DNA of 28,249 nucleotides from a virus. This document shows, in pieces, positions 24,303 to 25,249 of this stretch; positions within the stretch are counted from its first letter, which is position 1; every line of letters begins with the position of its first letter. The translations under genes and the position numbers were made by a program. Under the pieces are notes generated by a model that saw only the letters and a program-made list of their open reading frames with translations, was not told the DNA's origin and did no database searches. Where the stretch lies: IMG/VR virus record IMGVR_UViG_3300019762_000021, positions 1 through 28,249 of that record; one strand, written 5' to 3'.

Positions 24303-24791
24303 CTAAAACCCCAGCTGCAATTGTGCTTTATCTATTAATATAACCAGTTCTTCTGTGGCCTCTTTTTTTCTTGATCTTATTTCACTTCCTGTTTTCCCCC
24401 AAGCACTACCAGCTGCCGCTAAGTCATCAAGCTGACCGGAAAGGCGATTGATTGAATCCATCAAGCTATTATCTACTAGCTCATTTTTTATGTACTCTTC
24501 CATTTTATCGTATGAGGCAATATAAGCCTCCTTATATTCCGCTGCTTTATATCCTGTAAATCCCATGCAAAGAAATATAAAGCCATTTTTTGTCATATCG
24601 AAACAGTCGAATTTTTTGTTTTGAGGGCTGGTGTATGTGGAAAGCTCAAAGTTGAGCGATCTAAAACTATCTGAACATTTTAAGTTTTTAATGTCCCTGA
24701 TAACATTTTTATGGGGTTTGTTAAATTTCTCAGCTATTTCTTTCGATGAAACGGTAGGCTTTCCGTTTTTAATTGATACTAGGGCTTGCAT
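24303..24791 (-). CDS. rha: Rha-family phage regulatory protein
   Basis: A 162-aa protein. Residues 1-95 are the Rha domain: ALVSIKNGKPTVSSKEIAEK, then NKPHKNVIRDIKNL, FELSTYTSPQNKKFDCFDMT and KNGFIFLCMGFTGYKAAEYK. This winged-helix-like module occurs in phage regulators and antirepressors, and Rha was described as affecting growth of phi80-like phages in particular host backgrounds. The C-terminal part is helical (SLMDSINRLSGQLDDLAAAG) and probably oligomerises. It has its own strong promoter and an SD inside a 12-bp inverted repeat, so it is uncoupled from the surrounding early transcript. Confidence 0.85.
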   Translation of the reverse strand: MQALVSIKNGKPTVSSKEIAEKFNKPHKNVIRDIKNLKCSDSFRSLNFELSTYTSPQNKKFDCFDMTKNGFIFLCMGFTGYKAAEYKEAYIASYDKMEEYIKNELVDNSLMDSINRLSGQLDDLAAAGSAWGKTGSEIRSRKKEATEELVILIDKAQLQLGF

Positions 24792-24796
24792 AATAA

Positions 24797-24837
24797 CTCC
24801 TATTTAGAATAATCAATTATACCACTCTAAATAGGAG
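24797..24837 (-). repeat. Perfect 12-bp inverted repeat overlapping the rha Shine-Dalgarno
   Basis: CTCCTATTTAGA (24797-24808) and TCTAAATAGGAG (24826-24837) are exact reverse complements 17 bp apart. In minus-strand RNA the downstream arm holds the AGGAG Shine-Dalgarno of rha, 6 nt before its ATG. The spacer contains the promoter -10 box. It could act as a DNA operator, an RNA hairpin, or both. Confidence 0.85.
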
Positions 24838-24844
24838 CTATCAA
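24816..24844 (-). promoter_or_regulatory. Near-consensus sigma70 promoter of rha
   Basis: On the minus strand: TTGATA (24844-24839), 17-bp spacer, TATAAT (24821-24816) with an extended TGG just before it. This is the best promoter in the window. The expected start site is 24809-24810, just before the second repeat arm. Confidence 0.85.
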
Positions 24845-24847
24845 ATA

Positions 24848-25249
24848 TTATCCTGTAGGCCACTGAACTGATATGCCAAACTTATCGGACATATATCTAT
24901 TTAAAGTCTCGTAGATCAAAGGATAATCAACTGTCTTAACCTTTGCTGTGCTTTCTTGGCCTGTGACAACCTTTTGCATCGGCTTCCATAGGTATTCTTT
25001 AGCCATAGGCATAGACCAAGGAATATCAACCTCATGCTTTAATGTGCGCTTCATATCTAAGCCCGCATCGTTTAAAGCGTTAGCTAGATTGGTTAGAAAC
25101 ATATGCAAAGCTGCATTCTGCTTTAACGTTCTAGCTTTACCTTTGGCTTTAATATCAAGCTCTAGGTATTTACATTGATCAAAGTCTTTCTTTAGCTGAT
25201 CTATAGCTTCATTAAGGCTTTGCTGGCTGTTAATTATCATTATTGCCAT
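24848..25249 (-). CDS. ninB: NinB (lambda Orf-like) recombination mediator
   Basis: A 133-aa protein with the NinB pattern: KARTLKQNAALHMFLTNLAN, LNDAGLDMKRTLKHEVDIPW, KEYLWKPMQKVVTGQESTAK and an aromatic C-terminus. Lambda Orf/NinB binds SSB and single-stranded DNA and helps load annealing proteins, so its presence downstream of erf and ssb is coherent. Two starts are possible: ATG 25249, or ATG 25240, which forms TAATG with the stop of the upstream 50-aa gene and shortens the protein by three residues. Neither has a good SD. Confidence 0.85.
   Translation of the reverse strand: MAIMIINSQQSLNEAIDQLKKDFDQCKYLELDIKAKGKARTLKQNAALHMFLTNLANALNDAGLDMKRTLKHEVDIPWSMPMAKEYLWKPMQKVVTGQESTAKVKTVDYPLIYETLNRYMSDKFGISVQWPTG

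Follow-up and report, generated by a model that had tools for sequence, protein, structure and literature searches.

A phage rha promoter set within a hairpin that may lock the rha start codon in read-through RNA

The rha locus of IMG/VR record IMGVR_UViG_3300019762_000021 raises the question of how a regulator gene with its own promoter is controlled when it lies directly behind another gene on the same strand. The window analyzed here is the whole stretch of DNA, positions 1-28,249 of that record (28,249 nt), which also encodes a P22-type portal protein and a large terminase. The rha product is a member of the Phage_pRha family (PF09669; 96.9 bits against a gathering cut-off of 29.9), and the gene is flanked by ninB and ninG in a same-strand row, with erf and ssb farther upstream (Table 1). 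The stop codon of ninB (24850-24848) is 3 nt upstream of the -35 element of the rha promoter, and a terminator scan called no terminator between ninB and this promoter. Because ninB ends so close to the -35 element and on the same strand, read-through transcription into rha is expected; the gene order suggests that it would be early.

Table 1. Coordinates of the genes, promoter elements, stem, and operator-like half-sites in the window
Feature	Position	Strand	Basis
rha, 162 aa, short-type Rha regulator	24303..24791	(-)	Pfam PF09669 1e-27; PHROG 518 2.6e-41
ninB/orf-like gene	24848..25249	(-)	PHROG 72 and 7283; Pfam NinB below cut-off
ninG/rap-like endonuclease gene, immediately after the rha stop codon	23883..24302	(-)	PHROG 5034 4.6e-21
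-35 hexamer TTGATA of the rha promoter	24839..24844	(-)	Promoter scan; matrix from 28 other rha leaders
Extended -10 TGGTATAAT	24816..24824	(-)	Promoter scan; rha-leader matrix
Predicted transcription start of the rha promoter	24809..24810	(-)	Inferred, ~7 nt past the -10
Stem 5' arm, only in read-through RNA (perfect core 24826-24837)	24821..24843	(-)	RNA fold; inverted repeat
Stem loop	24814..24820	(-)	RNA fold
Stem 3' arm with SD 24797-24801 and A of AUG (perfect core 24797-24808)	24791..24813	(-)	RNA fold; opening cost
Operator half-site 1, TC at -15/-14 from the -10	24835..24836	(-)	Conserved columns, 29 rha leaders; second dyad centre -10.5
Operator half-site 2, GA at -6/-5	24826..24827	(-)	G 17/29, A 23/29; dyad centre +4
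Operator half-site 3, TC at +13/+14	24807..24808	(-)	T 21/29, C 22/29; binomial 2e-11 for C

A preliminary description of this DNA had reported a perfect 12-bp inverted repeat with the rha Shine-Dalgarno sequence (SD) in its downstream arm, and the repeat is present as reported. Its arms are 17 nt apart, the SD (AGGAG) lies inside the downstream arm, and the AUG (24791-24789) adjoins it. No other inverted repeat in the window has perfect 12-bp arms separated by 3-40 nt, and dinucleotide shuffles give an expectation of 0.125. Since 10% of the shuffles of the window contain at least one such repeat, its mere presence is only slightly out of the ordinary; its unusual aspect is its placement. The window contains no second copy of the upstream arm at 0 mismatches, and matches with up to 3 mismatches occur at chance level. 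An exact search of viral contigs gave one further match to this arm, in L014, which was rejected as an unrelated chance match.

The rha promoter consists of TTGATA, a 17-nt spacer, and TATAAT (24821-24816), with a TG one base upstream of the latter that makes it an extended -10, and 11 of 12 hexamer positions match the consensus. When a promoter matrix was derived from 28 rha leaders, with the window left out, this site scored 28.6 bits and the second-best place in the window scored 9.6. The leaders were collected from viral contigs, genome contigs, and phage records. Most belong to genes for short Rha proteins (about 155-168 aa) and a few to genes for proteins of about 230 aa. Genes of this group are preceded by a promoter of their own; its -10 is extended in most cases, and its predicted start tends to lie 18-31 nt upstream of the AUG. 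By this comparison with homologous leaders, the predicted rha promoter is a real one. The near-consensus promoter noted earlier is retained, with small corrections to its layout: the -35 had been placed ahead of the upstream arm and the -10 in the loop, whereas most of the -35 and the first base of the -10 are inside the extended stem described below. Similarly, the start had been placed just before the downstream arm; the predicted site does precede the perfect part of that arm but is within the extended 3' arm.

In RNA that reads through from upstream, the repeat is part of a predicted stem of 23 contiguous pairs closed by a 7-nt loop (-27.4 kcal/mol, z -8.4), about five of which are G-U pairs, and this stem takes in the rha SD as well as the first base of the AUG. 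For RNA that starts at 24809, folding predicts no more structure than chance (z 0.02). Opening the rha start region costs 21.6-22.2 kcal/mol in the long RNA compared with 4.5 in the short RNA, so folding of the two leaders bears out the earlier proposal that long RNA would fold over the start and short RNA would be free. Among the 29 gene starts of the window, rha has the strongest upstream masking (z 7.1; next 2.7). Its upstream segment masks the start with a z of 6.5 relative to dinucleotide shuffles of that segment, and it does so more than any of 28 homologue segments swapped into its place.

Such a stem could also be a signal for processing or termination, that is, an RNase III site or an intrinsic terminator, and not a translation lock. 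RNase III can act on stems of 23 continuous pairs, and this one is long enough. On the other side, the stem is not followed by a U-run, it is not called in the terminator scan, and there are no Rfam family matches anywhere in the window. We consider this explanation highly improbable.

A different possibility is that the ninB stop codon, just upstream of the stem, allows translational coupling, in which ribosomes ending ninB would open the stem and rha translation from the long RNA would follow that of ninB. The opening cost would be at most 7.7 kcal/mol for a ribosome covering at least 18 nt, counted from the first base of the stop codon, but with cover of about 12-15 nt it stays at 13-17 kcal/mol, compared with 4.5 for the short RNA. 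Ribosome cover past the first base of a stop codon is usually about 12-15 nt. In addition, the upstream gene in L175, a relative with a masked rha start, is too far away for coupling because it ends about 60 nt before the -35. Coupling is thus possible but not favored, and we give it a very low probability.

Start masking was computed for 29 non-identical promoter-bearing rha leaders by comparing the opening cost with that of 300 dinucleotide shuffles of the upstream segment and with that of swapped segments. The window was represented in this test by L015, a near-identical relative with the same leader. Eight of the 29 leaders specifically mask the rha start (p 0.003-0.027), and the other 21 scatter around zero. 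The masking z values are 6.5 for the window, 6.3 for L175, 3.6 for L277, 3.1 for L032, 3.0 for L008, 2.8 for L017, 2.7 for L016, and 2.6 for L360; when compared with swapped segments, seven of these eight rank first and L016 ranks second. Since 21 of the leaders are without such masking, the lock is not a family-wide property. The excess of masked leaders has a binomial probability of 6e-5 at the 0.05 level (4e-4 without the window and 0.009 without the window's whole clade), and it is not significant when masking is counted as three origins among the 24 tips outside that clade (p 0.12). In a control set of non-rha genes with similar promoters from the same loci, from which row L001, the window's own rha, was removed by hand, one of 36 starts is masked (Fisher 0.005, or 0.010 without the window).

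The nearest two relatives that have rha, L175 and L016, share 61% and 56% protein identity with the window. In each, both arms (AUCCUAUGA/UCAUAGGAU in L175 and UAUCUCUUAUGA/UCAUAGGAGGUA in L016) differ from those of the window, but pairing across the SD is retained. Relatives thus support the proposed contrast between long and short RNA independently of the folding. The very close relative L002 gives no covariation because its leader is identical to that of the window. One clade (100/98 support) unites the window with L016 and L175, and another (89/80) unites L277, L017, and L008; L032 and L360 each stand alone. On the protein tree, the masking trait requires four changes, three of them forced by supported branches. 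The masking arms of L277, L017, L008, L032, and L360 are unrelated to those of the window's clade. Those of L277 are CUCCUGUUA/UAACAGGAG; those of L032 are AAACCUCAU.AUAG/CUAU.AUGAGGUUU, with the -10 inside an arm; and the stem of L017 masks the start codon, not the SD. Several relatives of this rha gene therefore seem to use the lock with unrelated hairpin sequences.

Outside the rha genes, an unrelated 255-aa hypothetical gene at L004:2695-2794 has a start codon that is paired with sequence 5' of its predicted start site (z 6.1).

When the 29 rha leaders were aligned on the -10, three sets of columns (TC, GA, and TC) were conserved beyond the promoter consensus. In a dyad scan over all centres, +4 ranks first (46% complementary) and -10.5 second (41%), with a median of 30%. 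These columns support a candidate operator over the promoter, made of three alternating operator-like half-sites that span the -35, the -10, and the start. A matrix scan of the window found no further operator sites near the score of the rha promoter. Two loci have other arrangements of repeats in this region. At L275:1440-1485, a near-perfect palindrome of ~40 bp is centred on the rha -10 and stops short of the SD. At L021:2440-2500, three GAGGT/ACCTC copies cover the promoter, the start site, and the SD, which makes pairing of the SD possible within the short RNA, and an intrinsic terminator is just upstream.

The suggestion that the repeat itself may be a repressor operator leads to a reading in which only DNA matters: a repressor site (CTCcTATTTaGAG) would occur on either side of the -10, once in each orientation, and the RNA stem would be a by-product. 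The half-sites are indeed conserved across leaders, the repeat of the window is built on the conserved GA-N17-TC dyad, and the long palindrome over the -10 of L275 stops before the SD. However, this dyad takes in no more of the repeat than its innermost pairs; in the same register, the outer 10 pairs are complementary at 10/10 in the window compared with 37% across the other 28 leaders. The operator and the hairpin thus overlap yet are distinct features, because these outer pairs are not part of the conserved dyad. The masking stems of L032, L277, and L017 also differ from the dyad in register and centre, and several of the 23 stem pairs of the window are G-U, which count in RNA but not in a DNA dyad. 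From these results, we regard an operator acting alone as unlikely, and the operator proposal is supported for the conserved half-sites, to which most of the repeat does not belong.

Rha itself would be our guess for the likeliest protein to bind this operator, and putative Rha autorepression is likewise a guess that draws on gene order and on the conservation of sites beside rha. The model of full-length Rha has a pLDDT of 83 and that of its N-terminal domain a pLDDT of 91. In the PDB, no confident relative was found by a Rha-profile sequence search or by fold comparison with the full-length or N-terminal model; for the N-terminal domain, the best match was the RacA DNA-binding domain at Z 4.5, and the best Foldseek E was 0.11. 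Weak structural matches of the Rha models include winged-helix regulators, and a winged-helix reading of the domain is only a guess because none of the PDB relatives is confident.

If the stem acts on read-through RNA, the genes upstream of masked and unmasked leaders are of interest. A same-strand upstream gene without a terminator precedes six of the eight masked leaders and four of the 21 unmasked ones (Fisher 0.009, or 0.020 without the window), according to gene and terminator calls for the 29 leaders that were our own and were made post hoc, with the data already seen. Four leaders have a same-strand gene that ends no more than 5 nt from the -35, and masking is found in all of them, compared with 4 of the 25 others (p 0.003, or 0.011 without the window). 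Unmasked leaders are often preceded by a terminator or by an opposite-strand gene. There are exceptions on both sides: four unmasked leaders (L275, L326, L345, and L178) appear exposed to read-through, and masking occurs in L008 despite a terminator and in L032 despite an opposite-strand neighbour. Under phylogenetic control, 1.3 pairs speak for the association and 0.1 against it. With only about 1.3 informative pairs, the data are suggestive of masking being commoner where a same-strand gene without a terminator precedes the promoter.

The ninB gene of L006 is 98% identical to that of the window, but L006 is without rha, its leader, and the hairpin, and the ninB stop codon directly precedes another gene. 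This indicates that the leader and the rha gene travel together. At L006:519-1276, a 119-aa HNH-like ORF and a 133-aa ORF replace rha and the ninG-like gene after ninB; because L006 carries other ORFs there, the segment downstream of ninB is exchangeable. A general rule can be offered tentatively, as one possibility: wherever they land in a phage genome, short-type rha cassettes may gain a guard against read-through, be it a terminator, opposite orientation, or a stem that masks the start and surrounds the operator-controlled promoter, and the stems may re-evolve new arms for each SD or start codon.

Several known systems resemble this arrangement. Phage T4 conceals the SD or start codon of e, soc, 49, and I-TevI in RNA begun upstream, and internal late promoters give free RNA; in gene e masking cuts synthesis about 100-fold (PMC3014915). 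The comparison with T4 lysozyme gene e made in the preliminary description is right in its logic, as long RNA in T4 folds, and that of rha is predicted to fold, over the start region and RNA from the internal promoter does not; a difference is that the timing of the late promoter is established in T4. I-TevI is a closer parallel than gene e, since an operator overlaps its promoter as well. The I-TevI protein is its own repressor, and I-TevII, I-TevIII, segB, and Aeh1 mobE have a hairpin arrangement like that of I-TevI (PMC2988022). I-TevI and, by prediction, rha share an SD within a stem on read-through RNA, RNA from their own promoter that is without the 5' arm, and operator or operator-like sites on the promoter. 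They differ in that T4 late promoters drive endonuclease genes, whereas here a sigma70-type extended -10 promoter drives a Rha regulator whose autorepression is putative.

In IS10/Tn10 and IS50, the start is hidden in read-through RNA, which contains the two arms of a repeat, but not in the element's own RNA. The rha locus would be alike in both respects, but those systems concern transposase genes and element ends, whereas rha is in a phage gene cassette without known ends.

Control at the RNA level upstream of rha-family genes is also exerted by C4 (RF01695), which differs in being an antisense RNA. C4 was detected in 11 of 11 long-Rha loci tested (one barely at the Rfam threshold), in none of nine short-Rha-group loci tested, and not in the window. 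The long-Rha loci with C4, mostly with isrK upstream, are L023, L033, L055, L058, L102, L107, L110, L117, L133, L147, and L165; L033 additionally matches DicF.

Taken together, we think it probable that rha has a repressor-controlled promoter combined with a translational lock on read-through mRNA, of the T4 gene e or I-TevI type. Transcripts that enter from upstream through ninB would carry both arms and fold into the 23-bp stem. Provided that this stem is formed in vivo and keeps ribosomes out, little or no rha would be translated from read-through RNA because its SD and start codon are concealed. Transcripts from the rha promoter would have their 5' end between the arms; with the 5' arm absent, they would be translated. 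Given the three-half-site operator on this promoter and the lock on read-through RNA, rha would be made only when its own promoter is free.

The principle of this lock is already known from phage T4, and rha would be an additional case; a T4-type lock for rha genes was not described in the literature that we searched. What the locus would add is a compact, sigma70-driven version of the T4-type read-through lock, paired with a conserved operator, for phage regulators of a family that can be carried as exchangeable cassettes. Earlier work cited in PMC4936722 reported phi80/P22 rha to be harmful to phage growth without IHF, which fits a need for tight control of rha. Our findings suggest how a regulator gene that could be harmful to phage growth at the wrong time may sit in another operon and yet not be made from that operon's message.
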